From positions 1,520,501-1,584,500 of the forward strand of contig NZ_CP089291.1 in assembly GCF_022818495.1 (NCBI RefSeq): a stretch of DNA of 64,000 bases, given 5' to 3'. Positions within the stretch are counted from its first letter, which is position 1, and each line of letters opens with the position of its first letter. The translations under genes and the position numbers were made by a program. The notes under the pieces were generated by a model. The model had not been told where the DNA came from and ran no database searches. It worked only from the letters and a program-made list of their open reading frames with translations. This stretch comes from Fodinisporobacter ferrooxydans. Its GTDB lineage: Bacteria > Bacillota > Bacilli > Tumebacillales > MYW30-H2. Below are positions 48,762 through 64,000 of the stretch, piece by piece.

Positions 48762-48835
48762 AAGTATAACAATCCGGAATACATCCAGCAGCACATGACA
48801 AAAGAAATCCAGGTTATAGATATGGGGGGGATTTC

Positions 48836-49372
48836 ATGCATTCGCACCGGACGCGCTGGACGGTCATCCTGCTTATTTTCGTATTGGCGGTTGCAATAAT
48901 GGCTTCCATTTATAAACAATTCAAACAAACAACTCCATTGGACGGATTAAATCCGGGCCAGGCAGCGCCAAACTTTGTCCTGCAGAATTTGCAGGGGAAC
49001 GATGTATCATTGCAAGAGTTTAAAGGAAAAGTAGTGTTAATAAATATCTGGGCGAGTTGGTGCAAGCCTTGCAGGGATGAGATCCCGGGAATCGTGCAGA
49101 CATATCAAGCATATAAAAATCAGGGATTTGTTGTTTTGGGAGTCAATTATAAAGAAAATCCGGTAACCGTGAAAGGGTTTATGGAGCAATTCCATATGAA
49201 TTACCCTGTAGTATTTGACACAGACGGCAAAATGTCCGAAATGTACAAAGTGGGGCCGCTGCCGACGAGTTTCTTGGTGAATCGTAAGGGAATCATTGAA
49301 AAGGTAATAGTCGGGCAGATGTCTGAATCCTATTTGAAGCAGGCAATAGGAAACATGGTTAAGGAAAAATAA
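48836..49372 (+). CDS. ResA/TlpA-like membrane-anchored thiol-disulfide oxidoreductase
   Basis: A 178-aa protein with an N-terminal membrane anchor (residues ~9-27) and an extracytoplasmic thioredoxin fold. The active site is WASWCKPCRDE, with cis-Pro in GPLPTSFLVN. Family members reduce apo-cytochrome c or copper-site cysteines and are kept reduced by CcdA, which is encoded 1.2 kb away. Its stop lies just before the csoR promoter. Confidence 0.9.
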   Translation: MHSHRTRWTVILLIFVLAVAIMASIYKQFKQTTPLDGLNPGQAAPNFVLQNLQGNDVSLQEFKGKVVLINIWASWCKPCRDEIPGIVQTYQAYKNQGFVVLGVNYKENPVTVKGFMEQFHMNYPVVFDTDGKMSEMYKVGPLPTSFLVNRKGIIEKVIVGQMSESYLKQAIGNMVKEK

Positions 49373-49375
49373 GCC

Positions 49376-49404
49376 TTGAATACATCTACGGGGTATAGTA
49401 TAAT
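49376..49404 (+). promoter_or_regulatory. csoR promoter with GGGGTAT operator half in the spacer
   Basis: TTGAAT (49376), a 17-bp spacer and TATAAT (49399). The spacer contains ATAC...GGGGTAT (49379-49396), a CsoR-type half palindrome, so autoregulation is likely. Confidence 0.65.
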
Positions 49405-49431
49405 ATAAAGATTATGAAAGGAGGCGGAGAG

Positions 49432-49764
49432 ATGGCAGTCGATATTATGCATCAATGTTCGGATGGGGATGACGGTGAAGTTTCGGTAAGATCGAGTCAT
49501 CATTCGGAAAAGCTGAAAACCAATTTGACCAGCAGGCTGAATCGGATTGAAGGGCAGATTCGCGGCGTCAAAGGCATGATTGAGAAAAATGTGTATTGCG
49601 ATGATATTTTGAATCAGATTTCGGCGATTCAATCCGCTCTGAATGCAGTTGGCAAATTGCTTTTAGAGAGCCATATGAAAAGTTGTGTAGTTGAGCGAAT
49701 TCAGGAAGGGGACACGGAAGTACTTGATGAGTTGATGAAAACCATGAGCAAGCTTATCAAGTAG
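49432..49764 (+). CDS. csoR: CsoR-family copper-sensing repressor
   Basis: A 110-aa all-helical repressor. The start at 49432 is 7 nt behind ggagg. The copper ligands C-x24-H-x3-C are present (Cys56 in NVYCDDI, His81 and Cys85 in ESHMKSC), which assigns it to the Cu(I)-sensing branch, although persulfide sensors (CstR) share the two cysteines. It has a His/Asp-rich N-terminal extension. The next gene is copZ. A matching operator lies in its own promoter and another before the CoADR gene at 9795. Confidence 0.88.
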   Translation: MAVDIMHQCSDGDDGEVSVRSSHHSEKLKTNLTSRLNRIEGQIRGVKGMIEKNVYCDDILNQISAIQSALNAVGKLLLESHMKSCVVERIQEGDTEVLDELMKTMSKLIK

Positions 49765-49858
49765 TCGACCGACTCAATGCCCAGATGCTTATGCAACTTA
49801 ACTTAATAAAAATATCCAATATTGATACAAATGAACATGACAGGAGGATGGATTCATT

Positions 49859-50062
49859 ATGTCTAACGTAGTTTTAAAAGTAGAGGGAATGTCCTGCAAT
49901 CACTGTGTCAATGCTGTAGAAGGCGCATTGAAAAAATTGGGAGCGGAAGGAAAAGTAGATCTGCCAGGCAAGTCTGTAGCGATCCAATATGATGAATCCA
50001 AGGTCAATCTTGAGGCCATTAAAAGTGCGATTGAAGATCAGGGATACGATGTAGTCGGTTGA
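49859..50062 (+). CDS. copZ: Copper chaperone CopZ
   Basis: A 67-aa ferredoxin-like HMA domain with the Cu(I) motif GMSCNHC at residues 10-16 and the GYDV end. It carries copper to a CopA-type ATPase or to the CsoR repressor. It has an aggagg site. It follows csoR directly and is ended by a hairpin at 50081. No copA gene is in the window. Confidence 0.92.
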   Translation: MSNVVLKVEGMSCNHCVNAVEGALKKLGAEGKVDLPGKSVAIQYDESKVNLEAIKSAIEDQGYDVVG

Positions 50063-50080
50063 TGTATTCAGCTAATGGTG

Positions 50081-50138
50081 TGTGAGCAGCGGTGGATGAT
50101 TCATGTATCGTCATTCGCCGCTTGCACATATATTTTTA
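50081..50138 (+). terminator. Terminator after copZ
   Basis: Long imperfect hairpin tgtg-a-gcagcgg ... ccgcttgc-aca, followed by a T-rich tail that abuts the second 159-bp element. Confidence 0.65.
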
Positions 50139-50297
50139 AAGTGTGTGTTCAAAAAGTGGTTAAGTAAGACACAAGGAGTGCGAAGCCGAAGCGCGAAAAG
50201 GCGACGGAGTGTACGTGTTTGGTACATGAGTAAGCCTTTTTGGGATTCGGCAAAGCAATCCGCCGTGGAGTTTTGACTACTTTTTGAACATCCTCTT
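50139..50297 (+). repeat. 159-bp MITE-like element, copy 2
   Basis: Same length and orientation as 42707-42865 with one base difference. It also lies directly behind the end of a gene/terminator and is followed in both places by similar AT-rich DNA containing aaaatgag. It has terminal inverted repeats and a central tgtac/gtaca hairpin. Confidence 0.85.
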
Positions 50298-50427
50298 ATA
50301 GTAATAAAATGAGGATATTGCAGGTTAAACTAGTAAAAAGCTTCCAACCTATTTCGTTGAAAGCTTTTTGTATTTCTCCCACCCTATGTCCGCGACACAT
50401 CTCTTCGATTCCTTTTTTCCTATACAA

Positions 50428-50943
50428 TCATAAGCGATCTTTATTGATTTCCCGGATTACATGCGTCAGTTCCGGAAGGATCAGGCGATTCATGGCCAGT
50501 CGTACTGCACCTGTGGAGCCTGGCATGGAGAAAACCGCTTTCCCGTTGCAGACGCCGGCGATGGCGCGGCTGAGAATCGCTGCCGCACCAATATCCTCAG
50601 AAAAGCTCAAATAGCGAAACAGCTCGCCGAAGCCGGGCATTTCCTTATCCAGGCAGTCTTTCACCGCTTCGTATGTCGTATCCCGCATGGCAATGCCAGT
50701 GCCGCCGTTCAACAATATCCCGTCTATCCGCGAATCTGCCGCGATCTTCCGAATCAGCTCTTGAATGACAGAATATTCATCTTTGACGATCTGGTACGTT
50801 GTGATTGCATGACCGGCTTCCAGCAGCAATTGTTTGATCAACTGCCCGCTTTTGTCCGATTGCTCTGTTCTTGTATCAGAAACGGTTATAATCCCGCAGC
50901 GAACCGTCTTCGGCGCCGACTGACGGTGCTCCTCTACTGACAT
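50428..50943 (-). CDS. moaB: Molybdenum cofactor biosynthesis protein MoaB/Mog
   Basis: A 171-aa MogA/MoaB-type protein with GIITVSDTRTEQSDKSG near residue 18, GILLNGGTGIAMRDTT near 75 and FSMPGSTGAVRLAM near 138. It acts in adenylylation of molybdopterin. The start follows aaaggagaattccc. Its ATG overlaps the end of a fur-type remnant. No molybdoenzyme is seen in the window; a nitrate reductase elsewhere could use it. Confidence 0.92.
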   Translation of the reverse strand: MSVEEHRQSAPKTVRCGIITVSDTRTEQSDKSGQLIKQLLLEAGHAITTYQIVKDEYSVIQELIRKIAADSRIDGILLNGGTGIAMRDTTYEAVKDCLDKEMPGFGELFRYLSFSEDIGAAAILSRAIAGVCNGKAVFSMPGSTGAVRLAMNRLILPELTHVIREINKDRL

Positions 50944-51200
50944 TGGGAATTCTCCTTTGGATGTTCACAGTCTTTGCAAACACCATAGACTTCAAATTTA
51001 TGATCGATAATTTGAAAATCGTCCGCTTTACATTTCCAGGAATTCATTGGACAAACTTCAATCGCTTTTGTTTTTCCTCATTTTGTGCAGATCATATGGT
51101 GGTGATGCTTAGGACCCGGACAATGGAAGCGAAATTGTTTTTCACCTTTTGATTGTACCGTCACAATGTAAGCATAGCGAATATAACGGGAACGGTCAAA
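50934..51200 (-). pseudogene. Fur-family C-terminal remnant with internal TGA
   Basis: Reading the minus strand up to the TAG at 50934 gives the second half of a Fur-type repressor: FHCPGPKHHHHMICTK, then TGA (51080-51078), then GKTKAIEVCP and the closing VCKDCEHPKEN zinc motif. The TGA stands where the family has the second Cys of CxxCG. The N-terminal DNA-binding half is absent: the frame is closed by another TGA at 51203 and the V4R gene lies immediately upstream. I call it a truncated pseudogene; selenocysteine here is much less likely than in the peroxiredoxin. Confidence 0.65.
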
Positions 51201-51248
51201 TCAAAGAGATCTGCTCCTATTATATTTCAATTGCCTGTAGAAACGAAT

Positions 51249-51716
51249 CTAGCCCAAGAATCGAACTTCGTATTCACAGCGCTCATCGCCGTTTACATTG
51301 CATTTTACTTCTTTCACGGATACTTTTTTGTTTAAAATCTTGCTTAAAGCTCCCTCGAATATGGCTCCTTCCAAATCACAGACCAGGTTGCCGGCATGTA
51401 CAGGAAGTCCTTCGCAAAAGCAGTCTTCAATGGCAACGCGAAATCCTTTGCCGGTTTCTTCAATAACAGAAGGAATTCCGATCTTTAGCTGCTCGAATTT
51501 TTTTAACAATTCATTCACGGAGGTTGCTTCAATTTTCTCTCCGATGGTTCTGCCGATCGTCAGCGTAGTCGCTTTCCCATGCATGGGCAAACCTTCATAC
51601 ATGCCGATTAAACGAATCGCCCGGAACAATTCGAGGGGCACCTTGTCACCCAGTTTGTTTCGTTTTACCAAAGTCATGTCCTTAAAACTGAACGTCTCTT
51701 GTCCGATTATGCTCAT
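51249..51716 (-). CDS. V4R-domain protein
   Basis: A 155-aa protein of the V4R (4-vinyl reductase) family, a small ligand-binding domain found in stand-alone proteins and sensory regulators. The C-terminal half has the typical pattern DCFCEGLPVHAGNLVCDLEG and ERCEYEV, with several cysteines that could bind metal. The start follows aggaggagattggc. It diverges from the polytopic membrane gene at 51960 across a region containing an Fnr-type box. Its exact role in denitrification is unknown. Confidence 0.75.
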   Translation of the reverse strand: MSIIGQETFSFKDMTLVKRNKLGDKVPLELFRAIRLIGMYEGLPMHGKATTLTIGRTIGEKIEATSVNELLKKFEQLKIGIPSVIEETGKGFRVAIEDCFCEGLPVHAGNLVCDLEGAIFEGALSKILNKKVSVKEVKCNVNGDERCEYEVRFLG

Positions 51717-51842
51717 GCCAATCTCCTCCTGAAGAAAAGGGAACTAATAAATGATCAATTCCCCTTTTCAAATAGATACTATGTATGGTTGCTTGTAAGT
51801 TTCAATCTTGAAGTAAGAATGCCACAGAATATTTATACAAGG

Positions 51843-51884
51843 AGTGATACCTGTCACAAAAAGAGAGGAATTTTGAATTATAAT
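51843..51884 (+). promoter_or_regulatory. Fnr-type box and -10 for gene at 51960
   Basis: AGTGA-TACCTG-TCACA (51843-51858) is centred about 41 bp upstream of the start predicted from TATAAT (51879-51884). This is a class II activator arrangement. Confidence 0.7.
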
Positions 51885-51959
51885 GAGGAAAATAACGGAA
51901 TCCAATGGAAATTTAACGGAAATCCAATGACAATACAACAAGTGTAAGGTGGAATGAAA

Positions 51960-53258
51960 ATGGCTTTTAAAACTTCTACGAAAAAAAGCTTGTCAGCAAC
52001 TGTCTACTATATACTGACAGCGTTTCTCTTTATTTGGGTGGCACTTTTTCAAATTGGCAGAGTCTTGCCGCTATGGGCAAAAGGAATCACGACAGCACCT
52101 GTATCGTTGTTCACCATACATTTTACCATTCTGGGATTTATGCTGACGGCTGCATTTGGGGTCATGTACCAGTTTATCCCCATCGCATTCCAAGCTCCGC
52201 CCATTGGCAGACATGTTCTGTATTGGCATTTGCCGATTCACGCACTGGCTAGCGTAGTATTGTCAGTTGGTTTTTTGCGCTTTCAAATGCAGATGGTGAT
52301 GATCGGAGGCATCTTTTTGCTATGCAACTCCATTGCTTATTTGACGGTTGTTTTGCAAAGCTACCGAAAAGCCAGGAATCAGACATTTGTTCATAAAGGC
52401 ATGCTTCTTCCCATAGTCGCTGTTGTCGTTGTCATGATCTTTGGAATTTGGATGGCAGCCGGTTTGCCGGGGACTGGCCAAGCGCTCCTGGAAGCGCATA
52501 TTTTTCTTGGTGCGTTTGTTTTCTGGAGCGGACTTGTGATTGTCTTATCGTATAAGTTGATACCGATGTTTACACTGAGCCACGGGTATAAAATTTCACA
52601 AAAGACGACGATATTTCTCTATTTTTTCAGTCTTGCTCTCATGATGATTGGCGATATTGCATTCCGTACAGGCCCACAGTTCTTGGGGCAAGTCATTATT
52701 ATTCTGGGTGCGGTGCTTGGGATTGCCGCTTATATTCGCTTCACCGTCGACATTTATAAAATATTGCAAGCGAGAAAGCGCAAGTCGATCGTTTTGCCAA
52801 TTCGATATTCGCTTGTTTCTACAGGTATTCTGATTCTTTCAGGAATCTTGGCTTTTCTTATGATCGCTTTTCAGCAAGCGCAATTCTTCTATGGCATTGG
52901 CTATGTCATGTTGTTTGGCGGATTTGTGCCATTGATATTTTCCTATGCGCAGAAAATTATCCCGTTTTTGTGGTATGAGTACCGTTTCAGCCATCGTCCG
53001 GAACGCAAACAAGCGCCGTTGATGGACGATATGGTGTCGCATTGGAGAGCCAAATGGTCGATGAATCTTTACTATTTGGGAGTATGTATCGGCCTCCTTC
53101 ATTTTTTCATCCGATACGGGAATGGTGCCTATGTTCCGCAGTGGGTGGATTCGATTGCAGATCCGCTCAGCGGGATCTTGTCCATGGTTGCCGGTGTCCT
53201 GCTTTTCTCAGCCCTTGTGCGCGTATTGACAATCGGTGGACCGCGGCCAAAAGATTAG
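51960..53258 (+). CDS. Polytopic membrane protein A of the denitrification island
   Basis: 432 aa, about 12 membrane helices. ATG 51960 is 8 nt behind aaggtgg; the ATG six nt earlier is too close. Conserved polar spots shared with its paralogue at 53865 are a His in helix 2 (FTIHFTILGF), EAHIFLG, YKLIPMFTLSHG and YAQKIIPFLWY. The histidine pattern is reminiscent of haem-binding NnrS or haem-copper oxidase subunit I-like proteins, but I cannot assign it. An Fnr-type promoter precedes it. A role in NO metabolism or copper/haem handling is inference. Confidence 0.6.
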   Translation: MAFKTSTKKSLSATVYYILTAFLFIWVALFQIGRVLPLWAKGITTAPVSLFTIHFTILGFMLTAAFGVMYQFIPIAFQAPPIGRHVLYWHLPIHALASVVLSVGFLRFQMQMVMIGGIFLLCNSIAYLTVVLQSYRKARNQTFVHKGMLLPIVAVVVVMIFGIWMAAGLPGTGQALLEAHIFLGAFVFWSGLVIVLSYKLIPMFTLSHGYKISQKTTIFLYFFSLALMMIGDIAFRTGPQFLGQVIIILGAVLGIAAYIRFTVDIYKILQARKRKSIVLPIRYSLVSTGILILSGILAFLMIAFQQAQFFYGIGYVMLFGGFVPLIFSYAQKIIPFLWYEYRFSHRPERKQAPLMDDMVSHWRAKWSMNLYYLGVCIGLLHFFIRYGNGAYVPQWVDSIADPLSGILSMVAGVLLFSALVRVLTIGGPRPKD

Positions 53259-53267
53259 CCAACAACA

Positions 53268-53310
53268 AGTGATGTATCTCACAACATGTGATGCAAATTG
53301 ATTGTATTCT
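53268..53310 (+). promoter_or_regulatory. Fnr-type box and -10 for the DUF2249 gene
   Basis: AGTGA-TGTATC-TCACA (53268-53283) with TATTCT at 53305-53310 gives an activator centre about 41.5 bp before the predicted start. Confidence 0.65.
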
Positions 53311-53372
53311 AAGCTCAAGTTGAAACACAATATATTTTATGCAAACCATTCGGAGTATGGGAGGCGTTTCAA

Positions 53373-53837
53373 ATGGATCAAAGAATTGTCGATCTGGATG
53401 TAAGAGACATTTTAAAGGCTAAGCTGGAGCCATTTCAAAAAATTATGGAAACGGTAGGAAGTCTGCAAGAAACAGACATCTTGCAATTGCATACCACATT
53501 TCGCCCGACGCCTTTATTGAAAGTATTGGGGAAAAAGGGATACAATCATGTAGTTTTGCAAATGGATAAAGAACATTTCATCATTCAATTTTATAAGGAA
53601 TCATTTGATATGCCGGTTTTCCGTTTGAATAATTTAGGATTGGAGCCGCCGCAACCGATGATTCGGACATTGGAGATGCTGGACAATCAGAAAGAATTCC
53701 AGGAAGGGGAAGCGAGACTCGAAATCTGGAATGAGCGTGTTCCGGCGTTTTTGTTGCCGGAGTTGGATGAGCGGGGTTTTTCGTACAAAATAGTGGAAGA
53801 ATCAGAAGGGGAAGTTCACGTACAGATTTTTCGCTAA
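53373..53837 (+). CDS. Double DUF2249 protein
   Basis: A 154-aa soluble protein made of two DUF2249-like units (about 5-75 and 85-150). The first starts LDVRDILKAKLEPFQKIMETVG. DUF2249 is a small sulfur-carrier-like (SirA/TusA-type) fold often encoded in denitrification clusters; its job is unknown. It has a gggagg site. It probably heads an operon with 53865, 55135 and 55457, controlled by the Fnr-type box upstream. Confidence 0.75.
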   Translation: MDQRIVDLDVRDILKAKLEPFQKIMETVGSLQETDILQLHTTFRPTPLLKVLGKKGYNHVVLQMDKEHFIIQFYKESFDMPVFRLNNLGLEPPQPMIRTLEMLDNQKEFQEGEARLEIWNERVPAFLLPELDERGFSYKIVEESEGEVHVQIFR

Positions 53838-53864
53838 ACGTTGACCGACTAGGAAGTGAGCAGC

Positions 53865-55142
53865 ATGAACAAAACAACAAGCCATTCACCGCCGTTTGCC
53901 CTGCCCATGCGCTACATTACATTAGGTGTAGTATTGTTCGGCTTGTTTGCATTACAGTTACTGGCTGAATCTTTATTTCATCCGTTTCAAATGGCACTGA
54001 TGCCGTCTGTTGTGGCATTGACACATTTGTTGACACTCGGTGTATTGCTTTCGATCGTGACGGGAGCTGTTTACCAACTTACGACTGTCACGTTTTTGAT
54101 TCCCATTCGAAATGTCGGACTTGCAGGCAAGAATTTCTGGATATATGGAATGGGCATTGTCGGTTTGTGGATCTCCATGGAGCAATGGTGGACGGTTGGA
54201 TTGCTGATATTCGGAACTATAGTCACGATATCGATTTATATATTTGGCATCCTTGTCATGCTTTCCTTATCGAAATCGACAGTGAAAGGCATGATCCGCT
54301 GGTATATATGGTTCTCGATGATGTATTTGCTGCTGGCAGTCGCATTTGCATGGACGATGATCGCTTCCATTCAGTTTGGCATCGGCAGCCGTTTTTACAT
54401 GGAATTGCTGGAAACCCATATTGTACTGGCGACAATCGGTTTCTTTACATGTTTGATTATCGGATTCAGTCTCAAACTTTTTCCGATGTTTACACTGGCA
54501 CATGGCTTTTCGACTGCCAGACAACCCTATACATTTGGATTGTTGCAAGGCGGATTGGCACTCTTGATCATGGGAATTTGGCTGCATAGCCGCATTTTGC
54601 TGACCATTGGAGGAGTTGCCGCAGTTGCCGCATTTGTTAATCATGCGCTGGATTTGCGCGGCATGATCCAAAAACGTATGCGCAAGACGATGGAAACACC
54701 GATTCGTTATGTTGTTGTCGCAACGATTTTCGGATTGATCAGTTTTTGTGCCGTACTCGGGATTGCTTTGGCACATGGCGGCTTGACTCAGTGGCAAGGC
54801 ATCATTGGGTTTTATATTCTTGGATGGATTGTATTGACCGTAATGGGATATGCATATAAAATTATTCCTTTTTTGATATGGAATCAGCGCTATGGTACAA
54901 AAGCGGGCAAAGAAAAAGTGCCGATGATGTCAGAGTTATTTGATTTAAAGAAAAGCCGCTGGGTATTCGGTCTGTTCGTTGCAGGATTATTTCTGTTTTC
55001 TTGCGGCATGGTTCTTGGATGGTATGGCTTGACAATGGCAGGGGGAAGCCTGTTGACAATTGGTATTGGATTATTTGTATGGCAAATGCTGCAAATTCTC
55101 AAACCATCACAATTATGGAAGGAGATATATTCCAATGATTGA
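53865..55142 (+). CDS. Polytopic membrane protein B, paralogue of the gene at 51960
   Basis: 425 aa, about 12 membrane helices. The start at 53865 follows aggaagtg. It shares with the other protein the helix-2 His (ALTHLLTLGV), ETHIVLA, FSLKLFPMFTLAHGF and YAYKIIPFLIW. Conservation of these histidines in two diverged copies suggests a metal or haem site. Its stop overlaps the start of the MIP18-type gene by 8 nt, so the products are translationally coupled. Function inferred only from context. Confidence 0.6.
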   Translation: MNKTTSHSPPFALPMRYITLGVVLFGLFALQLLAESLFHPFQMALMPSVVALTHLLTLGVLLSIVTGAVYQLTTVTFLIPIRNVGLAGKNFWIYGMGIVGLWISMEQWWTVGLLIFGTIVTISIYIFGILVMLSLSKSTVKGMIRWYIWFSMMYLLLAVAFAWTMIASIQFGIGSRFYMELLETHIVLATIGFFTCLIIGFSLKLFPMFTLAHGFSTARQPYTFGLLQGGLALLIMGIWLHSRILLTIGGVAAVAAFVNHALDLRGMIQKRMRKTMETPIRYVVVATIFGLISFCAVLGIALAHGGLTQWQGIIGFYILGWIVLTVMGYAYKIIPFLIWNQRYGTKAGKEKVPMMSELFDLKKSRWVFGLFVAGLFLFSCGMVLGWYGLTMAGGSLLTIGIGLFVWQMLQILKPSQLWKEIYSND

Positions 55143-55434
55143 TTTAGAAAAAGTAAGAGAGCAGTTGCTGGAAGTATACGACCCGGAATTGGGGTTGAAT
55201 GTTGTGGAATTAGGCTTGATCTATCATATGGAGGAAGTGGCGGATGGACAATTAGTCATTGATATGACATTGACAACACCCGGTTGTCCTATGCACGATA
55301 CGATGAGTGAAGCTGTGGAATGGGCAGCCGGCCGAGTCGATGGTGTGGAAGATGTGCGTGTCAATGTGGTTTGGAATCCGCCGTGGACGCCAGCGCGTAT
55401 GAATGACCAGGCCAGAGCGAAATTAGGTTTTTGA
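55135..55434 (+). CDS. MIP18/SufT-type iron-sulfur assembly protein
   Basis: A 99-aa DUF59/MIP18-family protein: VYDPELGLNVVELGLIYHM near residue 14 and the key cysteine in TTPGCPMHDTMSE. It helps mature Fe-S or other metal centres. The ATG lies 9 nt behind ggaag-gag and overlaps the upstream gene. Its presence in this operon suggests a client among the denitrification or regulator proteins (inference). Confidence 0.85.
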   Translation: MIDLEKVREQLLEVYDPELGLNVVELGLIYHMEEVADGQLVIDMTLTTPGCPMHDTMSEAVEWAAGRVDGVEDVRVNVVWNPPWTPARMNDQARAKLGF

Positions 55435-55456
55435 TACCGGAGCCGAGGTGGGTTGC

Positions 55457-56164
55457 ATGGTTCAATCACAACAATCAGAAGAATTGTTGCGAAAAATTTC
55501 TTTTTTTCGCGATTTAGAACGGACGGAACTGGAGAAAATTCAGCATTTGTTGATTCAGTGGGCCTATTCGGAAAAAATGAATATCTTTCTGCAAGGAGAT
55601 CCACTGAAATATGTATATTTTATCATGCGTGGAAAAGTGAAGATCTTCCGTGCGGATGAACATGGAAGGGAGCAAATTGTAAATATTTTGCAGGAAGGCG
55701 ACATGTTTCCGCACAAAGGATTTTTCCATACGGCAGAATACCCTGCGAACGCTGTCATGATTGAGCGGGGTATTCTGTTTGCTTTGCCGACAGCAAGCTT
55801 CCGCAACCTGCTGGAGACGAATCCGTCATTGTGCATCAGGCTTTTGGCGATTATGGAAGCGCGGTTGACGGAACTGCAAGACAGGCTGGAAGAAATCGTT
55901 TTGCATGATGTAGCGGAACAAATCATCTACATGTTGATGCGCCTTGCACAGCGGCATGGAGTTTCAGTCGGAGAGCGGATCTGGATTAACGTCCCTTTTA
56001 CCAATCAGGAATTGGCCAATATGATTGGAACTTCCAGAGAAACTGTGAATCGTACGTTAAATCAGTTGAAAAAAATCGGGGCTTTGCGAATCACCACAGG
56101 CCATCATTTACTGCTTGATATGGAACTGCTGGAAAAACGGCTGCATGCAAAACCGATGCTTTAG
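55457..56164 (+). CDS. Crp/Fnr-family regulator of the denitrification island
   Basis: A 235-aa regulator: cyclic-nucleotide-like beta-barrel (residues ~15-120), long dimer helix, and C-terminal HTH with recognition helix TSRETVNRTLNQLKK. Arg, Glu and Arg match the residues with which CRP reads TGTGA. It lacks the N-terminal cysteine cluster of oxygen-sensing Fnr, so it may sense NO by haem or otherwise, as Dnr/NnrR proteins do. The start at 55457 is 6 nt behind gaggtg. Matching boxes precede most units of the island. Confidence 0.88.
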   Translation: MVQSQQSEELLRKISFFRDLERTELEKIQHLLIQWAYSEKMNIFLQGDPLKYVYFIMRGKVKIFRADEHGREQIVNILQEGDMFPHKGFFHTAEYPANAVMIERGILFALPTASFRNLLETNPSLCIRLLAIMEARLTELQDRLEEIVLHDVAEQIIYMLMRLAQRHGVSVGERIWINVPFTNQELANMIGTSRETVNRTLNQLKKIGALRITTGHHLLLDMELLEKRLHAKPML

Positions 56165-56297
56165 GTGGAGTATTTTTGCTTATCCATTTGAGTTTTTCTC
56201 ATGTAATTCAAGGTATATAGTTCAATTGAAGTAGTAAAAAACAACTATGCATGTGTGTTTTTTCATATTGTGGAAAAAAAGCGAACGAACGAAAAAA

Positions 56298-56313
56298 TGT
56301 GAAAAATATCACT
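56298..56313 (+). promoter_or_regulatory. Fnr-type box before nirK
   Basis: TGTGA-AAAATA-TCACT, 100 bp upstream of the nirK start. A weak -10 (TTTAAA at 56333) would put the box at about -40. Confidence 0.65.
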
Positions 56314-56412
56314 TGTTAATTCCTGCAATTGATTTAAAACAGAGATAAAGAAACAGTTTCTGAGATATATGCAGCAGTTGCTGGATTCTCGACACAATTG
56401 GAGGGATTGGCT

Positions 56413-57405
56413 GTGAAAAAATCAAATATTTTCTTTTCCGTACTAATGGCTGGTTCATTATTGGCAGGGTGTGGCATTCAGAGTGCACCACCGGATAAAT
56501 CGGCGCCTGCGCCAACAGCGCAAACTGCTAAGGACACAAAAAATCCTCAGCAAGCTGTCAATCAACCGCCAACGCCGGTCGTTGTAAAACGCATTGGCGC
56601 ACATGACGTACAGATCGAAATGACCGCACAGGAGACCGATGTTGAGATCGCACCAGGCGTCAAGTATCATTCCTGGAATTTTAACGGTACCGTTCCTGGC
56701 CCTGTGATCAAAGTCAAGCAAGGAGATACGATTCATTTTAAACTGAAAAATATGGACCCGAAAATCCCGCATAGCATGGATTTCCATGCCGTAACGGCAG
56801 CGCCCAATAAAGACTTTGCCAATGTTGCGCCAAATAAAGAAGGAGAATTCACGTATACAGCCGAAAATCCCGGCGTGTTCATGTACCACTGCGGCACCGC
56901 GCCGGTCCTGATGCATATTGCCAACGGCATGTATGGTACGATACTCGTGCAGCCAAAAGACGGCTACCCGACAGATAAGAGAATCAACAAGGAATTTGTC
57001 ATTACGGAGTCAGAAGTCTACAAACAGAACGACTTCAATGATATGAAAAACGGTTCACCGTCGTATGTATTGTTCAACGGGAAAACAACAGAAGCAAACA
57101 AGCCGCTATATGCCAAAGTCGGCGATTGGGTCCGAATTTACTTCAACAATGTAGGGCCGAATGATGTAAGCAGTTTCCATGTCGTCGGAACCCAATTTGA
57201 TACTGTGTATGTGGATGGCAATCCGCAAAATGTGCTCCATGGTTTGCAGTCGTATGCAGTACCCGCTTCCGGCGGATTGGTTGTGGAGTTTCAAGTGAAA
57301 AAAGAGGGGATTTACCCGATCGTTGACCATGAGTTCAGCAAAGCAACGAAAGGCGCGATCATGAAGCTGGTCGTCACGAAAGATGGAAATCCACCCCAAC
57401 AGTAA
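56413..57405 (+). CDS. nirK: Copper nitrite reductase NirK, lipoprotein form
   Basis: 330 aa, reducing nitrite to NO outside the membrane. The GTG start is 7 nt behind ggaggg. The signal peptide ends in lipobox LLAGC, so the enzyme is lipid-anchored; a Pro/Ala-rich linker follows. Copper ligands are all visible: PHSMDFH (type 1 His, catalytic Asp, type 2 His), MYHC...MHIANGM (type 2 His, type 1 Cys, His, Met), FHVVG and VDHEF (the remaining catalytic and type 2 His). An Fnr-type box precedes it and a strong terminator follows at 57454. Confidence 0.93.
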   Translation: MKKSNIFFSVLMAGSLLAGCGIQSAPPDKSAPAPTAQTAKDTKNPQQAVNQPPTPVVVKRIGAHDVQIEMTAQETDVEIAPGVKYHSWNFNGTVPGPVIKVKQGDTIHFKLKNMDPKIPHSMDFHAVTAAPNKDFANVAPNKEGEFTYTAENPGVFMYHCGTAPVLMHIANGMYGTILVQPKDGYPTDKRINKEFVITESEVYKQNDFNDMKNGSPSYVLFNGKTTEANKPLYAKVGDWVRIYFNNVGPNDVSSFHVVGTQFDTVYVDGNPQNVLHGLQSYAVPASGGLVVEFQVKKEGIYPIVDHEFSKATKGAIMKLVVTKDGNPPQQ

Positions 57406-57453
57406 AGAAAATCCGCTTCGCCAAAATTTTCGGCTTAAGACAAAAACTGCCCG

Positions 57454-57480
57454 GACGCCTATTGCCCTAGGCGTCTTTTT
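57454..57480 (+). terminator. Terminator after nirK
   Basis: Hairpin gacgcct/aggcgtc followed by T5. Confidence 0.9.
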
Positions 57481-57559
57481 CAATGTAAGAAAATGATACT
57501 AAATTAGAACGTAATTAACAACAGAAATTCTCTAATAATTTTTGAAAGAATTTCAAAGA

Positions 57560-57602
57560 TGTGAGAATCAGCACATCATACAATTGAAAAACTCGGTATC
57601 GT
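57560..57602 (+). promoter_or_regulatory. Fnr-type box before the second DUF2249 gene
   Basis: TGTGA-GAATCA-GCACA inside the wider palindrome gatgtg...cacatc. A -10-like TATCGT (57597) puts it at about -41.5. Confidence 0.55.
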
Positions 57603-57648
57603 TAATCCTGTAAGACACATTCATTTCTATACGTTGGAGGTAATGATC

Positions 57649-57885
57649 ATGAGTCAATATGCTGCTACAGTAAAAGCGATGGAGTATCCGCCGCAATTAA
57701 AGCACAAGGTGATTTTTCAAACATTTGAAAGTCTGCAGCCGAATGAGGAAATGTTATTGATCAACGACCATGACCCGGTTCCATTGCGCTATCAATTTGA
57801 ACTTGAGCATCCTGGGAAATTCACCTGGGAATATGTTGAACGTGGTCCTAGTCTGTTTCAAGTGAAAATCGGGCGTGTAGAGTAG
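57649..57885 (+). CDS. Single-domain DUF2249 protein
   Basis: 78 aa, one DUF2249 unit (HKVIFQTFESLQPNEEMLLIN, DHDPVPLRYQFE). The ATG at 57649 is 8 nt behind ggagg. It lies 41 nt upstream of the next small gene and between nirK and the NO reductase, the usual setting for this family. It was seen once more as a double-domain copy at 53373. Function unknown. Confidence 0.8.
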   Translation: MSQYAATVKAMEYPPQLKHKVIFQTFESLQPNEEMLLINDHDPVPLRYQFELEHPGKFTWEYVERGPSLFQVKIGRVE

Positions 57886-57926
57886 CGATTTTCATACAGC
57901 AATCCGATAAAAAAGGATGTTTGCCA

Positions 57927-58265
57927 ATGGCTAATGTTGAAATTCTGGATGAAAACTCCGTATGTATTCATGTTGCGCTGGAAGATGCGGTGCAAATGGT
58001 CAAATGGGCGGCTGAAGATATCAAGGGATATGCCAGTGAGATCGTAACGATCAGTGAAAAAATGCCGGCATTTGATTTCATATACTTTTGTTTCTATGCA
58101 TATGACAGTGCAAGGCTGTTCGAGCGGCTGTTGGGCGTTGATCCACGTCAATACACATCGTTCTCGCTGGATGCTCCGGATGCATTCTTTTATGCCTTGT
58201 ATGGCGGAATGCAGGCGCTTTATGCGCAGGCTGTGCAATACGCAACTTCACCGCAGGAAAACTAA
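57927..58265 (+). CDS. Unrecognised small acidic protein (112 aa)
   Basis: ATG 57927 behind aaaaggatg. The product is acidic, mixed alpha/beta, with no membrane helix and no cysteine pair. Visible features are the opening ANVEILDENSVCIHVALEDA and an aromatic-rich centre (DFIYFCFYAYDSARLFERLLG). I do not recognise the family. It is co-transcribed with the DUF2249 gene under an Fnr-type box and ended by a strong terminator, so a denitrification-linked accessory role is likely. Confidence 0.65.
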   Translation: MANVEILDENSVCIHVALEDAVQMVKWAAEDIKGYASEIVTISEKMPAFDFIYFCFYAYDSARLFERLLGVDPRQYTSFSLDAPDAFFYALYGGMQALYAQAVQYATSPQEN

Positions 58266-58280
58266 ATCCCACGGATATTC

Positions 58281-58327
58281 ACACACGCCGGATTCTTCTG
58301 TATCAACAGGATCCGGCGTGTGTTTTG
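58281..58327 (+). terminator. Terminator
   Basis: Hairpin acacacgccggat/atccggcgtgtgt followed by T-rich sequence. Confidence 0.9.
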
Positions 58328-58382
58328 TTTTGAAAACATCTATCAAACTCGTTTGTGAACAAACTTTGAACCCTGATTGTCA

Positions 58383-58425
58383 TGTGCGAATTCTCACAAT
58401 CAAGGTTCATGACTTCCAATATAGT
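58383..58425 (+). promoter_or_regulatory. Fnr-type box and -10 of the NO reductase gene
   Basis: TGTGC-GAATTC-TCACA (58383-58398) with TATAGT at 58420-58425. The box centre falls 41.5 bp before the predicted start. Confidence 0.65.
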
Positions 58426-58464
58426 TTTTATTGTTATAACAAACATATTAAGGGAGGTTTAAAA

Positions 58465-60798
58465 ATGAGTCATGATGCTCAGCACGAACAAGGGTCAAAA
58501 ACTCTAAAGCGAGTATTGCTGTCCGTAATCATTGTGAGTTTTCTTGTGCTGCTGGTAGGAGGTATATTTGTTTACAAAAACGAGGCTCCTATACCCAATA
58601 TGGTTGGGACAAATGATCAAATTGTAACAACACATAATAATTTGATCAACGGACAAGAAACCTACCAGCAAACTGATTTGGCGGATTATGGTTCACTACT
58701 GGGGAACGGTACATTTTTTGGCCAGGATTTTACGTCAGAGACACTGAATATTGTTGCCGACAGCATGCGCAATTTTGATGCAAAACAACAGTATGGCAAA
58801 TCGTATGCCCAATTGTCCAAGGAACAACAAGCAGCAATAGCTGATGCCGTTAAAAGTGAAATTCGTGTGAACCGCTATAATGCATCCGATAATACCTTAA
58901 AGTTGACAGCTTCACAGGTTTATGCGCTGGATCAGGTTCGGGCGCATTATGAGCAATTGTTTACGAAAGGCGATCCAGCTCGCGCATTGCCGAAGAGTAT
59001 TTTTAAGGCGGCTAGCTCTACGTCGACGATAAAAAATTTGAGCGACTTTTTCTACTGGACATCCTGGATGTCATCTACCGATCGGCCAGGATCCAATTAC
59101 TCTTATACAAACAACTGGCCATATTATCCGGCTGTAGGCAATGTCGAGTCCTTTTACGCAATATTCTGGAGTGGTATGAGCGCTGCATTCTTGGTACTGA
59201 TGCTGGCAATCATTATTTGGGTTTATAATCACTTTAAATTTCAAATGGAAAGCAACTACAAATCGTTCCCGACTATTAATGTAAATGATATAAAAATTAC
59301 TCCCAGCCAAAGAAAGACAGGAAAATATTTTGTCATTGTCTGCCTGGTATTCCTGTTTCAGACTTTGATGGGTGGATTGATGGCCCACTATTATGTGGAA
59401 GGTTCCGCATTCTACGGATTGCCGATATTAAAATGGCTTCCATATAACATTGCAAAAACGTGGCATTTGCAGTCAGCAGTGTTCTGGATCGCAACAGCTT
59501 GGCTTGGCATGGGGTTGTTTATTGCGCCGCTGGTCAATGGAAAAGAACCAAAAAGACAGGGATTTCTTGTCGACGTGCTATTTGCCGCACTGATTGTTGT
59601 CGTTGCCGGCAGTTATACCGGTGAGTGGCTTGGAGCCAAGGGTTTATTGGGCAAGGCATGGTTCTATTTTGGCAATGAAGGATGGAATTACCTGGAATTA
59701 GGGCGGTTTTGGGAAATTTTACTGATTGTTGGCCTGCTTCTATGGATGTATATCGTTTGGCGAGCATTACGCGTGCCATTGCGCAACGAAGCAGACAAAG
59801 GAGGACTTGTCCACCTATTATTTTATAGTGCATGGACAATTCCGGGATTCTTCGCTTTCTCTTTCTTGGTGAATCCTAGCTGGAACATAACGACGTCAGA
59901 TTACTGGCGCTGGTGGGTCGTCCATCTATGGGTTGAAGGTGTGTTTGAAGTTTTTGCCGTTGTTGTGATTGGCTTTATGCTTGTTGCAATGGGTCTGGTG
60001 ACAAAAAAATCAACAGTACGCGCTCTGTATTTTCAGATTATCATTTTAATGGGAAGCGGTATTATCGGTACCGGACACCATTATTATTGGATTGGCGATC
60101 CTGATATATGGATTGCTCTGGGTGCATGTTTTTCAGCCCTTGAAATTGTACCATTAACATTACTCGCCTCAGAGGCATACGACCAATATAAAATGCTGCG
60201 CGATGGCGGAAAAGATTTTCCATATAAAGCGCCATTTTGGTTTTTAATCTCAACGGCTGTCTGGAATCTGCTTGGAGCTGGTGTACTCGGATTCTTGATT
60301 AATCTGCCAGGAGTCAGTTTTTATGAGCACGGCTCTTTCTTGACGGCGGCACATGGCCATGGATCCATGATGGGTGTATACGGTATGCTGGCAATCGCTT
60401 TGGTGTTGTTTTCTATGCGCCAGATTGTTCAGTCTGACAAATACTGGTCTGAAAAATGGTTTAAGATGTCCGTATGGGGATTGAATATTGGTTTGGTGGG
60501 TATGATCGTAGTAACATTGTTCCCGATTGGTGTTGAGCAAATCAGATATACTGTTGAACATGGATTTTGGGCAGCCCGCAAGCTTGCGTTTTATCGTGAG
60601 CCTTTAATCTTTGCGCTTTTGTGGTTAAGAATTATCCCGGATTCCATATTCATCGTCTTCGGTGTACTTCCGTTAACATGGGGTGTCATAAAAGCGTTCT
60701 TGCATATGAAGCCAAGCCAGAAGGACGTCTTAGAAGCGCCAAAAGTATCATCGAGCGTTAAATCCGGCGTATCCAGTGTAAATGTTAAGGGAAATTAA
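58465..60798 (+). CDS. norZ: Quinol-dependent nitric oxide reductase (qNor)
   Basis: A 777-aa single-subunit enzyme reducing NO to N2O with electrons from quinol. One N-terminal helix and an extracytoplasmic domain (~40-215) precede about 12 helices. Haem and FeB ligands are visible: TWHLQSAVFW, HLWVEGVFEVF (His and Glu), GTGHHYYW (two His) and AAHGHGSMMG. The ATG at 58465 follows agggaggttta; the frame is open back to 58054 but that part overlaps the upstream gene and its terminator. No CuA motif is present. An Fnr-type promoter precedes it and a terminator follows at 60855. Confidence 0.94.
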   Translation: MSHDAQHEQGSKTLKRVLLSVIIVSFLVLLVGGIFVYKNEAPIPNMVGTNDQIVTTHNNLINGQETYQQTDLADYGSLLGNGTFFGQDFTSETLNIVADSMRNFDAKQQYGKSYAQLSKEQQAAIADAVKSEIRVNRYNASDNTLKLTASQVYALDQVRAHYEQLFTKGDPARALPKSIFKAASSTSTIKNLSDFFYWTSWMSSTDRPGSNYSYTNNWPYYPAVGNVESFYAIFWSGMSAAFLVLMLAIIIWVYNHFKFQMESNYKSFPTINVNDIKITPSQRKTGKYFVIVCLVFLFQTLMGGLMAHYYVEGSAFYGLPILKWLPYNIAKTWHLQSAVFWIATAWLGMGLFIAPLVNGKEPKRQGFLVDVLFAALIVVVAGSYTGEWLGAKGLLGKAWFYFGNEGWNYLELGRFWEILLIVGLLLWMYIVWRALRVPLRNEADKGGLVHLLFYSAWTIPGFFAFSFLVNPSWNITTSDYWRWWVVHLWVEGVFEVFAVVVIGFMLVAMGLVTKKSTVRALYFQIIILMGSGIIGTGHHYYWIGDPDIWIALGACFSALEIVPLTLLASEAYDQYKMLRDGGKDFPYKAPFWFLISTAVWNLLGAGVLGFLINLPGVSFYEHGSFLTAAHGHGSMMGVYGMLAIALVLFSMRQIVQSDKYWSEKWFKMSVWGLNIGLVGMIVVTLFPIGVEQIRYTVEHGFWAARKLAFYREPLIFALLWLRIIPDSIFIVFGVLPLTWGVIKAFLHMKPSQKDVLEAPKVSSSVKSGVSSVNVKGN

Positions 60799-60854
60799 TT
60801 TCAGAACTAACACTTCAAAACGATAAAAAATCGAATATAGCGATCTGCTGAAAC

Positions 60855-60895
60855 GCGCAGCACTCAAATAATGACGGAGTTCTGCGCTTTTTTTA
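60855..60895 (+). terminator. Terminator after qNor gene
   Basis: gcgcag/ctgcgc stem followed by T8. Confidence 0.85.
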
Positions 60896-60940
60896 TTTCT
60901 GTAAATGAAAATCTGACAATTTATTGAATACCTATGCGTG

Positions 60941-60983
60941 TGTGAGGAACATCACATGTCAAAACAGAACCAACCGTTATATT
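60941..60983 (+). promoter_or_regulatory. Perfect Fnr-type box and -10 upstream of nosZ
   Basis: TGTGA-GGAACA-TCACA (60941-60956), the best box in the window, with TATATT at 60978-60983. The box centre is 41.5 bp before a predicted start near 60990, about 410 nt before the nosZ ATG. Confidence 0.7.
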
Positions 60984-61402
60984 TGGGTTGGCATTCCGTT
61001 TTGAATGGCTCGACAGTTTTATAGTTGCTTCTATATTTCATATCCAATTTCACACCTACTTTAACTTTAGTCATTTTGACTGATTCGCCCCTTTTAAAAC
61101 CCTCATAAAAATCATCCATGACAGTCCTGTCCATTTCGCGCATAGAGTGGATGCAAACATTTACAAATATACATAAATATATATTTCTTCATATTTACAG
61201 ATTCAAGCTTATGCAAATATAAATATCAAGTTAGAAAAATTACAATATATTCTAATATTTGAAAATAGTAGAAAAAGACTAGATGTTTGACGGAAACATT
61301 AGCACATCCATGCTATGGAATAATTGCCCTTTCCGGAGTAATTTTGAATAAGCGAGGGCCCGCGCGATCAAGACATTAGAAACCAGAAAGGTGACTGGAT
61401 GT
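60984..61402 (+). other. Long AT-rich leader between promoter and nosZ
   Basis: About 410 bp without a convincing gene on either strand. A 63-codon minus-strand frame (60952-61143) lacks a ribosome binding site. The second half is very AT-rich. It may be an untranslated leader, the site of a second promoter, or the scar of a lost gene. Confidence 0.45.
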
Positions 61403-63283
61403 ATGAGAAAACGGACAAAGCAATTAGTAAGTGTAATTGCAGCCGCAGGTTTGATCGGTGTCACGTTAACAGGATGTGCATCCGATTCTTCCGCATCAAA
61501 TGCGTCAGCTTCAGGGGGAACAAGTGGCGCTTCATCTGACATTGAAAAGGCAGCATTGGCAACATATGTCCCATTCGGACAGAAAGACAAATATTACATG
61601 TTTGCATCAGGAGGCCACTCCGGGCAGGTATATGTGGTCGGTGTTCCATCCATGCGGCGAATTCGCACAATTCCCGTATTTACCCCGGATCCGGGCTCTG
61701 GTTATGGATTTGACGACAAGACGAAGGCGATGCTCGACGGATTTCACTGGGGGGACGTACATCACCCGGCATTGTCGGAGACAAACGGGAAATACGACGG
61801 CCGTTGGCTGTTTGTCAATGATAACGCAAACAATCGTGCCGCTATGATCGATTTGAAAACATTTACAACGGAACAAGTGACAAAGCCGATTCCGAACATT
61901 TCAGGGCCACACTGTGCCGCTTTCGTCACGCCCAACAGCGAATATTTCATGATGCCGACGCGTTTTTCTGTACCGCCGAATTTCAAATATTCGCCGCTGA
62001 CCGATTACGACAAAAAATATTCCGGCATGATGGCAGCGATGAAGATCGATCCGAAAACCGGACACATGAACCTTGGCTGGGAATTGCAATTGCCGCCTTG
62101 GGACTACGACTTGTCTGACGAAGGAAAAGGTCCTTCGAATGGATGGGCATTTATCACAACGTATAACACGGAAGAAGCGACAACCAATCTGGAAGTCAAT
62201 GCATCGCAAAAAGATCGTGACTATACGGTCATGGTGAACTGGAAAGCAGCTGCAAAAGCGGCAGCAGATCCAAAAAACACATATGAACTCAACGGTGCGA
62301 AAGTTCTCGATCCGACGAAAGTGCCTGGTCTCATCTATCTGTTGCCAACGCCGAAGTCGCCGCACGGTGTCGACGTATCGCCCGATGGAAAATACATTGT
62401 GGCGAGCGGCAAATTATCGCCGACAGTCACTGTGTTCTCTTTCGACAAGATTCAAAAAGCGATCGACAACAAAGATTTTGCCGGAATGGATCATGGCTTG
62501 CCGATTTTGAAATTCAACGATATCAAAGAAGCGGAAGTCAATGTGGGTCTTGGACCACTTCATACGCAATTTGACGGCAAAGGCTATGCGTATACAACGC
62601 TCTTCATTGACAGTGCAATTGTCAAGTGGAAACTGGGCGATTGGAAAGTCGTCGACAAGATTGGCGTAAACTACGCGCCTGGTCACTCTGCCGCATCTAT
62701 GGGCGACTCGGCTGTACCGGATGGCAAATATCTCGTATCACTGAATAAGATCGCCAAAGACGATTTCTTGCCGGTCGGTCCGTCACATCCGGTGGCCATG
62801 CAGCTAATCGATATATCCGGTCCGAAGATGAAACTGTTGTATACGGCGCCGATCGATGAGGAACCACACTATGCGCAGATTGCTCCGGCGGATCTTTTCC
62901 ATCCGATCAATGTGTATCCGAAAGATACGAGCAATCCGGCTGCCATCTATAATCCGAAGCAGGCGAAAGTCGTCCGCAACGGCAATAAAGTGGAGATTTG
63001 GATGACAGCGATCCGCAGCCACTTTACTCCTGACAACATTCAGGTCAATGAAGGCGATCAGGTAACGATTCACTTGACCAACCTCGACCGCGATGAAAGC
63101 ATTGCACACGGTTTTGCGATTGAAAGTTACGACATAAATGAGATTGTGGAACCTGGTCAAACAAAGACATTTACATTTACTGCCAAAAAGGCCGGTGTCT
63201 ATCCGTTCTACTGTACCAACTTCTGTTCGGCTCTCCACCAGGAAATGCAAGGATATTTGCTGGTGAAACCGAGTCAACAATAA
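61403..63283 (+). CDS. nosZ: Nitrous oxide reductase NosZ, lipoprotein (clade II type)
   Basis: 626 aa, reducing N2O to N2 at the outer membrane face. The signal peptide is Sec-type with lipobox TLTGC, not twin-arginine, as in clade II NosZ. Seven-bladed propeller His ligands of CuZ are visible in DVHHPAL, GPHCAAF, SPHGVDVS, GPLHTQFD, PGHSAA and EEPHYAQ. The C-terminal cupredoxin has the CuA motif CTNFCSALHQEM. ATG 61403 is used; an in-frame GTG at 61391 touches the ribosome binding site. A hairpin at 63414 separates it from the next nos gene. Confidence 0.95.
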   Translation: MRKRTKQLVSVIAAAGLIGVTLTGCASDSSASNASASGGTSGASSDIEKAALATYVPFGQKDKYYMFASGGHSGQVYVVGVPSMRRIRTIPVFTPDPGSGYGFDDKTKAMLDGFHWGDVHHPALSETNGKYDGRWLFVNDNANNRAAMIDLKTFTTEQVTKPIPNISGPHCAAFVTPNSEYFMMPTRFSVPPNFKYSPLTDYDKKYSGMMAAMKIDPKTGHMNLGWELQLPPWDYDLSDEGKGPSNGWAFITTYNTEEATTNLEVNASQKDRDYTVMVNWKAAAKAAADPKNTYELNGAKVLDPTKVPGLIYLLPTPKSPHGVDVSPDGKYIVASGKLSPTVTVFSFDKIQKAIDNKDFAGMDHGLPILKFNDIKEAEVNVGLGPLHTQFDGKGYAYTTLFIDSAIVKWKLGDWKVVDKIGVNYAPGHSAASMGDSAVPDGKYLVSLNKIAKDDFLPVGPSHPVAMQLIDISGPKMKLLYTAPIDEEPHYAQIAPADLFHPINVYPKDTSNPAAIYNPKQAKVVRNGNKVEIWMTAIRSHFTPDNIQVNEGDQVTIHLTNLDRDESIAHGFAIESYDINEIVEPGQTKTFTFTAKKAGVYPFYCTNFCSALHQEMQGYLLVKPSQQ

Positions 63284-63413
63284 TTCGGACACATAGAATG
63301 AAACTCCGAATTACACGCTGGCAGAGGAATCTTCAAAGTCCGCAAAGTTTAGAAAGTTTGTAAAGTTCGCAAAGGCTAGATTTCTGCAAACAAGAAATTC
63401 ATTTCTAAGTTGA

Positions 63414-63441
63414 AACTGGGTTCCAATAGAGGAACCCAGTT
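63414..63441 (+). terminator. Hairpin after nosZ
   Basis: aactgggttcc pairs perfectly with ggaacccagtt. It lacks a T-run, so it could also be a processing or partial-readthrough signal for the downstream nos genes. Confidence 0.55.
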
Positions 63442-63494
63442 ATCTACCCATCTGTCGTGAAAGATGAATAAATAACGGAAAAGAGGCGAGCGCC

Positions 63495-64000
63495 ATGTGG
63501 CGTAAAAAGGGGAAAGGAGCGACTGTGATCGAGCGGGCGGGGCTGTTTCTTGGAACGGTACTCATCATAATCAGTACATTTCAGCCTCTCTGGGGAATGA
63601 CTTTGATTGCGCCGCAATATCCGGAAGGCCTTCGAGTGGAGATATTTACAAAAGCCATCAAAGGCAATCTGGATATTATCAATACATTGAACCACTATGT
63701 GGGCATGAAAGATCTCGATAACATGAGTTTTCCGGAATTGAAATACATGACTGCACTCTTGCTTGCATTGGCAGCGTTGTTTTTTCTTTCCGCTGTCATC
63801 GGCAGACTCTGGATGGTTGCGGCCACGATGGGAATTTCTGCAGTTGTCGGGATTGCGGGAGTCTATGATCTGTACCACAAACTTTACAACTATGGCCATA
63901 ATTTGGATCCCCGCGCACCGATTAAACTCAGCGGCGGATTTACACCGCCGGTTATAGGTCAGAATCAATTGGCAAATTTTCATACGTATTCCTATTTTCT
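63495..64000 (+). CDS. nos-cluster membrane protein (NosB-like), cut by window end
   Basis: The frame runs from the ATG at 63495 (behind agaggcg) without stop to the window edge, at least 168 aa. It has at least three membrane helices (AGLFLGTVLIIISTF; MTALLLALAALFFLSAVIG; VAATMGISAVVGIAGVY) and an extracytoplasmic loop with NTLNHYVGMKDL and SFPELKYM. This pattern fits the membrane protein that follows nosZ in clade II nos clusters. It probably continues to nosD and related genes outside the window. Confidence 0.7.
   Translation, partial: MWRKKGKGATVIERAGLFLGTVLIIISTFQPLWGMTLIAPQYPEGLRVEIFTKAIKGNLDIINTLNHYVGMKDLDNMSFPELKYMTALLLALAALFFLSAVIGRLWMVAATMGISAVVGIAGVYDLYHKLYNYGHNLDPRAPIKLSGGFTPPVIGQNQLANFHTYSYF

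Follow-up and report, generated by a model that had tools for sequence, protein, structure and literature searches.

The subject of this analysis is a 64,000-nucleotide stretch of the Fodinisporobacter ferrooxydans genome (contig NZ_CP089291.1, positions 1,520,501 to 1,584,500; hereafter the window), in which six TGTGA-N6-TCACA boxes precede the transcription units of a denitrification island. The boxes are probably the operators of a Crp/Fnr class II activator that serves the island and dispersed genes for handling nitric oxide (NO), among them hmp, hcp, ric and qoxAB, and this activator is most likely the Crp/Fnr-family protein encoded in the island at 55457..56164 (+ strand; hereafter 55457). 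Read from the sequence, this is a real class II N-oxide regulon.

Six boxes at promoter positions

A previous reading of the sequence alone had placed a box at each of six positions, mostly centred at -41.5 from the predicted transcription start. All six were recovered there, and they are the only places in the window that match with at most one mismatch (2.55 expected; 2 of 100 shuffled sequences reached six). The boxes at 51843, 53268, 56298, 57560 and 58383 have one mismatch each, while the box at 60941 is perfect. With two mismatches allowed, the window showed no enrichment (27 places against 33 expected), and this count was rejected as evidence. The genome as a whole has 152 such one-mismatch places in its 4.857 Mb, a rate at which 9,141 bp should hold 0.286 boxes; the Poisson P for at least six is 6e-7. 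Between 51717 and 61390 (open reading frame coordinates), each of the six intergenic gaps of at least 100 bp holds one box (51717-51953, 53259-53372, 56165-56412, 57406-57648, 58266-58464 and 60799-61390), and three short gaps hold none.

All boxes lie on the + strand. Box 1 (AGTGATACCTGTCACA, 51843..51858) is upstream of a gene for a 434-residue membrane protein, with a -10 hexamer TATAAT at 51879-51884 and its centre at -40.5. Four boxes are centred at -41.5: box 2 (AGTGATGTATCTCACA, 53268..53283; TATTCT at 53305-53310), which heads the unit ending in the 55457 gene, box 4 (TGTGAGAATCAGCACA, 57560..57575; TATCGT at 57597-57602), box 5 (TGTGCGAATTCTCACA, 58383..58398; TATAGT at 58420-58425), upstream of the gene for the quinol-type nitric oxide reductase (qNor), and the perfect box 6 (TGTGAGGAACATCACA, 60941..60956; TATATT at 60978-60983), 5' of nosZ. 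Box 3 (TGTGAAAAATATCACT, 56298..56313), upstream of nirK, is followed by weak candidates only. Expressed as the gap, the number of bases that separate the -10 hexamer from the end of the box (21 for a centre at -41.5, 20 for -40.5), TANNNT follows five of the six boxes, at gap 21 in four and at gap 20 in the one at 51843, whereas the nirK box has only hexamers with four of six matching positions, TTTAAA (56333, gap 19) and TAAAAC (56335, gap 21). The statement that the boxes lie mostly at -41.5 thus holds for four of six, with a fifth at -40.5, and, judged by -10 position only, this is the arrangement of a class II promoter, with the operator centred at about -41.5. When random anchors were drawn in the same six gaps, five of six with TANNNT at gap 20 or 21 was reached in 0 of 50,000 draws. 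The boxes are almost certainly class II activator sites, as predicted from this geometry.

The operator consensus of Rex, an NADH-sensing repressor, is TTGTGAA-N4-TTCACAA; it has the same core as the box, with A at position 6 and T at position 11, and each of the six boxes agrees with it at 9-10 of 14 positions. That they are Rex sites, or chance palindromes, is nevertheless extremely improbable: their clustering and spacing are far beyond chance, related boxes prefer T at position 6 (0.62) and A at position 11 (0.51), opposite to Rex sites, and the fixed position at -41.5 fits an activator.

The same architecture across the genome

The genome-wide motif scan that had been proposed as a check was run on the source genome (G000, one contig of 4.857 Mb) with the reversed pattern as control. 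At no more than one mismatch it returned 152 boxes against 84 for the reversed pattern, and the class II pattern box-N21-TANNNT gave 20 matches against 8. Four of the 20 fall in the island, which makes up 0.19% of the genome (Poisson P 8e-8). The term 'local regulon' used previously proved too narrow, since the same architecture is present elsewhere in this genome and in related genomes.

Class II boxes were found upstream of hmp (L098), which encodes an NO-inducible flavohemoprotein (618 bits, cut-off 432), of ric (L103), for the Fe-S repair protein RIC (270 bits against a cut-off of 205), of the quinol oxidase operon qoxAB (L106), of sdhC (L110), and of genes for an OsmC protein (L097), a membrane protein matching no Pfam family (L111) and a cupin-hemerythrin protein (L100), the last with its gene start 385 bp from the box start. 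A methyltransferase gene (L099, G000:C1:4851603), convergent with a second Crp gene (L024), has a perfect class II site upstream. The site upstream of hemA (L109) is doubtful because a second TATAAT lies 7 bp 3' of its box. The other seven of the 20 matches are intragenic, face no gene in reach or are a second reading of a palindrome, in line with the reversed control. The gene for the hybrid cluster protein (hcp, L113; 579 bits, cut-off 361) has two perfect boxes upstream, 29 bp apart, the nearer one with TATAAT at gap 22. Beyond nosZ, the typical Fnr target narK-narGHJI (L114) has no upstream box in G000 with at most one mismatch.

The candidate regulator and its paralogs

55457 comprises 235 amino acids with a single cysteine (residue 126), which confirms that it lacks the Fnr cysteine cluster. 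It is a member of the Crp/Fnr superfamily (PF00027, 70 bits; PF13545, 62 bits; both above cut-off), it scores below the model for cAMP-dependent CRP (NF008732, 88 bits against a cut-off of 266), and, having no C-terminal cysteine cluster, it is not a Bacillus-type Fnr and stands apart from the eight cysteine-cluster proteins on the tree. Its predicted structure has a Crp-like fold (mean predicted local distance difference test score 91.2). DNR (3dkw) is among the structural matches (Z 18.3, root-mean-square deviation 10.9 over 225 residues), which reflects the general Crp fold only; the fold comparison was rejected as a family placement, the DNR match having no power to distinguish DNR from the remaining Crp folds.

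G000 encodes four Crp/Fnr proteins, none with the C-terminal Fnr cysteine cluster: 55457, L025 (recognition helix SRETVNR), L024 (TPETVSR, R180 replaced) and L027 (an N-terminal CxxC and the helix RETTSK). From 79 Crp proteins, 77 entered the alignment and tree, the two dropped being a second, truncated or duplicate open reading frame in L042 and in L088. R180 and E181 have been linked with G3 and A6 of the box, respectively, in the portion available of PMC1274295, so the helix of 55457 fits the box. The sequence-only reading had cited this SRETVNR helix, and its fit to TGTGA stands, but it is not diagnostic: R180, E181 and R185 are shared by 63 of the 77 aligned proteins (R180 and E181 by 75), L025 has an identical helix, and the helix was consequently rejected as proof for 55457 alone.

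In the sensor domain, a Phe-Pro-His (FPH) motif is present in 47 of the 77 proteins and invariant in a 37-row alignment. None of the eight cysteine-cluster Fnrs has the motif, and none of the 47 FPH-group proteins has the cluster. On the tree, 55457 falls in a 30-row clade (support 100/95) within a 49-row group that holds all FPH proteins. The group is widespread in Bacilli and recurrently linked with denitrification and NO-defence genes, and it very probably includes the protein that binds the boxes, as far as sequence comparison goes.

Within that group, L025 may read the boxes in place of 55457, or both may share them; L025 is itself an FPH-group protein, and G032 and G053 also encode two such proteins each. 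This is unlikely, given that the L025 gene has neither a box nor an N-oxide gene in the 3.3 kb read and that the order-level relatives sharing the regulon (G002, G004 and G006) have a 55457 ortholog and no L025 type. The eight order-level orthologs of 55457 are all in genomes without the L025 type. From these distributions, 55457 rather than L025 would, with good confidence, be the reader.

The boxes may alternatively be ordinary Bacillus-type Fnr boxes that answer the loss of oxygen, with 55457 incidental. The published Bacillus Fnr consensus, TGTGANNNNNNTCACA, is identical (PMC8151001, Table 1, citing Reents 2006), several Bacillaceae loci hold both a cysteine-cluster Fnr and an FPH-group protein, and qoxAB and sdhC are among the targets. 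This explanation is judged improbable, since neither the four Crp/Fnr proteins of G000 nor those read from order-level relatives have a C-terminal cysteine cluster, and narK-narGHJI is without a box.

Conservation in relatives and across Bacilli

The boxes recur in relatives of the order. G002 has perfect boxes 5' of nirK and of a cytochrome c-nosZ unit, and a qNor box with one mismatch. In G004, perfect boxes stand 5' of hmp, a DUF2249 operon, a cupin-hemerythrin gene and hcp, which has two; of the two qox operons there, one has a perfect box and the other a box with one mismatch. G006 has one perfect box 5' of hmp, and in four Tumebacillus-like genomes a box, perfect in three and mismatched once in the fourth, stands between the 55457 ortholog and a gene for truncated hemoglobin. 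Across 14 order-level genomes, class II matches numbered 71 against 20 in the control for the nine with an ortholog of 55457, and 20 against 18 for the five without (Fisher P 0.006), a count in which palindromic sites may figure twice. Of the five ortholog-free genomes, two are fragmented drafts and three belong to one genus.

This distribution bears on the L027 type, whose N-terminal CxxC and one further conserved cysteine could hold a cluster, so that it might sense oxygen as Fnr does and read the boxes. The type keeps R180 and E181 and, among the genomes read, is present in G000 and ten order-level relatives. It is, however, very improbable as the reader: R185 is replaced by K, and the type also occurs in two genomes, G003 and G011, that have no more class II boxes than the control gives (0 against 5 and 4 against 4, respectively). 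The box count thus tracks the 55457 ortholog and not the L027 type.

A variant site, TGTAAC-N5-TCACA, with a TA-rich -10 at the same spacing was observed in seven order-level genomes, with or without an FPH protein (G001:C3:439827, G005:C14:115943, G007:C21:157551, G009:C1:266521, G011:C1:1550425, G012:C4:220445 and G013:C1:5010619). It may belong to another Crp/Fnr protein, for example the L027 type.

The test was widened to 200 genomes of the class with a profile of 37 related proteins; 146 genomes matched at E 1e-30, other Crp/Fnr types included. A further 20 neighbourhoods were taken by match rank, leaving out those already fetched. One of the 20 had been seen earlier (L223 repeats L069), and six come from genus g32. 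These loci hold 55 boxes against 5 for the reversed control. In 18 of them, the fetched stretch holds at least one of hcp, hmp, ric, qNor, nirK, DUF2249, cupin-hemerythrin and narG genes (17 without L232, whose sole match is a weak cupin-hemerythrin one); none of these was found in the fetched stretches of L235 and L236.

Among 126 promoter-type boxes in 59 loci fetched by Crp homology, TANNNT lies at gap 21 in 61, at gap 20 in 5 and at gap 22 in 1, while other gaps average 3.2 with a maximum of 11; this count leaves out most of L097-L112 and L171-L190, loci picked by the class II pattern, and takes sites with identical flanks once, and its gene filter misses the island boxes 58383 and 60941. 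As controls for promoter-type sites in the 59 loci, the reversed pattern gave 0, N7 spacing 2 and N5 spacing 6. With 61 of 126 boxes at gap 21, class II geometry is a property of the whole group.

In genus g32, a gene of the L024 type of Crp/Fnr lies directly 3' of nirK (L233 5329-6896, L234 5216-6870, L238 5033-6600 and L239 7347-8957). By this linkage, the g32 protein is a candidate for a second type of N-oxide regulator.

Genes of the island

The first box lies between two divergent genes, one for a stand-alone V4R-domain protein (51249-51716, - strand) and one for the 434-residue multi-span membrane protein (51954..53258); this and all following genes are on the + strand. The unit behind box 53268 encodes a 154-residue DUF2249 protein (53373..53837, PF10006), a second multi-span membrane protein (53865..55142), a small Fe-S assembly-like protein (55135..55434, PF01883) and, assigned by profile matches, alignment and tree, the proposed activator. 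It is followed by a NirK-like copper nitrite reductase (56413..57405; TIGR02376, 200 bits, below the cut-off of 296), with a terminator-like hairpin 3' of nirK (57453-57476), a 78-residue DUF2249 protein (57649..57885, by domain match) and a 112-residue protein of no family (57927..58265) that is conserved next to DUF2249 in G004 and others. The qNor gene (58465..60798) encodes a NorB cytochrome c-like domain and COX1, and the last gene encodes a Sec-type nitrous-oxide reductase, NosZ (61391..63283; 883 bits, cut-off 625). The two membrane proteins, like that of L111 (1479-2888), are long and hydrophobic and encoded 3' of boxes; the three match no Pfam family even at E 10, one chance match aside, and the two of the island no NCBIfam family. 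In Bacilli, proteins of this type are recurrently encoded next to DUF2249 and PF01883 genes.

Box 58383 overlaps an inverted repeat of 13 bases with one mismatch (TGAACCCTGATTG / CAATCAAGGTTCA, 58367-58379 and 58397-58409, read by eye), whose centre is 2.5 bp from that of the box and which may serve the qNor promoter as an additional operator. A leader of ~400 nt (60990-61390) is predicted for the nosZ transcript, and a second promoter-like pair ends at 61037. No Rfam match was found in 46000-64000, which includes the leader, and a nosC-like gene remnant in the leader was rejected, tblastn giving no match.

Discussion

From the boxes, their spacing, the gene content, conservation and group membership, all read directly in the sequences, I infer which protein binds, in which direction it regulates and what it responds to. 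With its effector, 55457 would bind the box at -41.5 and activate each unit, and since its own gene is the last in the unit headed by box 53268, it would probably amplify its own synthesis in a self-amplifying loop. Its signal would be NO, or a species derived from nitrite or NO, sensed without an iron-sulfur cluster and perhaps through heme; the heme is a guess by analogy with DNR, in which NO sensing is heme-based.

NO is proposed because of the target list and because no recognisable NsrR scored over cut-off in G000, where no cysteine-cluster Fnr was found either. The NsrR reading covered two of four Rrf2-domain places, the two over cut-off, the others being weak. Both were rejected, one scoring as CymR (196.3 bits, cut-off 195) and the other, beside SUF-like genes, falling short of the NsrR cut-off (70 bits against 182). 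An NO-type inducer is, on this basis, reasonably likely; the suggestion made earlier is plausible and is strengthened by hmp, hcp and ric, but does not follow from a lack of cysteines.

Several observations weigh against 55457 as the activator of all these units. The nirK box, with its poor -10, is weaker than the other five, box 60941 is ~400 nt from nosZ, and L025 of the same genome has the same recognition helix. Two relatives, G012 and G013, have no FPH-group protein, yet carry a perfect box at truncated hemoglobin, and in G004, G006 and G008 no denitrification or NO gene was seen adjoining the ortholog; in G006, narK and narG follow 7-9 kb further on.

Parts of this system are known: the box is identical to the Fnr box published for Bacillus, and Crp/Fnr proteins that govern N-oxide regulons have been described (HcpR, DNR and NnrR). 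The Bacillus subtilis Fnr regulon shares the Crp/Fnr protein type and the box consensus (PMC8151001, Table 1), and differs in the cysteine cluster, absent from 55457 and all 47 FPH proteins, and in that the proposed targets of 55457 centre on NO handling. In the portion available of Rodionov et al. 2005 (PMC1274295), HcpR controls hcp and other N-oxide genes, with a Desulfovibrio motif (wTGTGAnnnnnnTCACAw) that is the same as the island box; it is described there for anaerobes (Clostridia, Thermotogales and delta-proteobacteria) and is likened to 55457 by description only. A comparable gene linkage is that of fnr2 of B. licheniformis, a second Crp/Fnr gene beside qnorB and the ric-type gene dnrN, which the part of PMC4719734 available only lists as Crp/Fnr.

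The proteobacterial DNR and NnrR also resemble the activator proposed here, as Crp/Fnr activators without an Fe-S cluster that exert NO-responsive control of nir, nor and nos, but recognise FNR-like motifs of TTGAT type, whereas the box here is CRP-like. For NnrR, this control is described in the part available of PMC8139620.

No description of a cysteine-cluster-free Crp/Fnr NO regulon of Bacilli was found in the literature searched, which leaves most subscription papers outside. The accessible portions of papers on N2O-producing or denitrifying Bacillota do not mention Fnr/Crp or just list or locate fnr genes (PMC4719734). What is probably new is a group of Bacilli Crp/Fnr proteins without the cysteine cluster that has an N-oxide regulon, a little-studied activator. 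A more tentative proposal is that the FPH group supplies the main activator by which Bacilli respond to NO, for denitrification as well as for nitrosative-stress defence, with the invariant FPH contributing to a new site that senses NO or heme.

If the interpretation is correct, the FPH group fills, through a CRP-type box at -41.5, the role of DNR and NnrR in Proteobacteria and of NsrR in B. subtilis, and denitrification would be tied to NO defence in a genome in which no cysteine-cluster Fnr or recognisable NsrR was found. The control of nirK, qNor and nosZ in Gram-positive denitrifiers, and hence of the release or consumption of nitrous oxide, is poorly known. The finding is useful because it makes this control directly testable, yielding one candidate regulator group, one operator and one target list for testing in a single organism.

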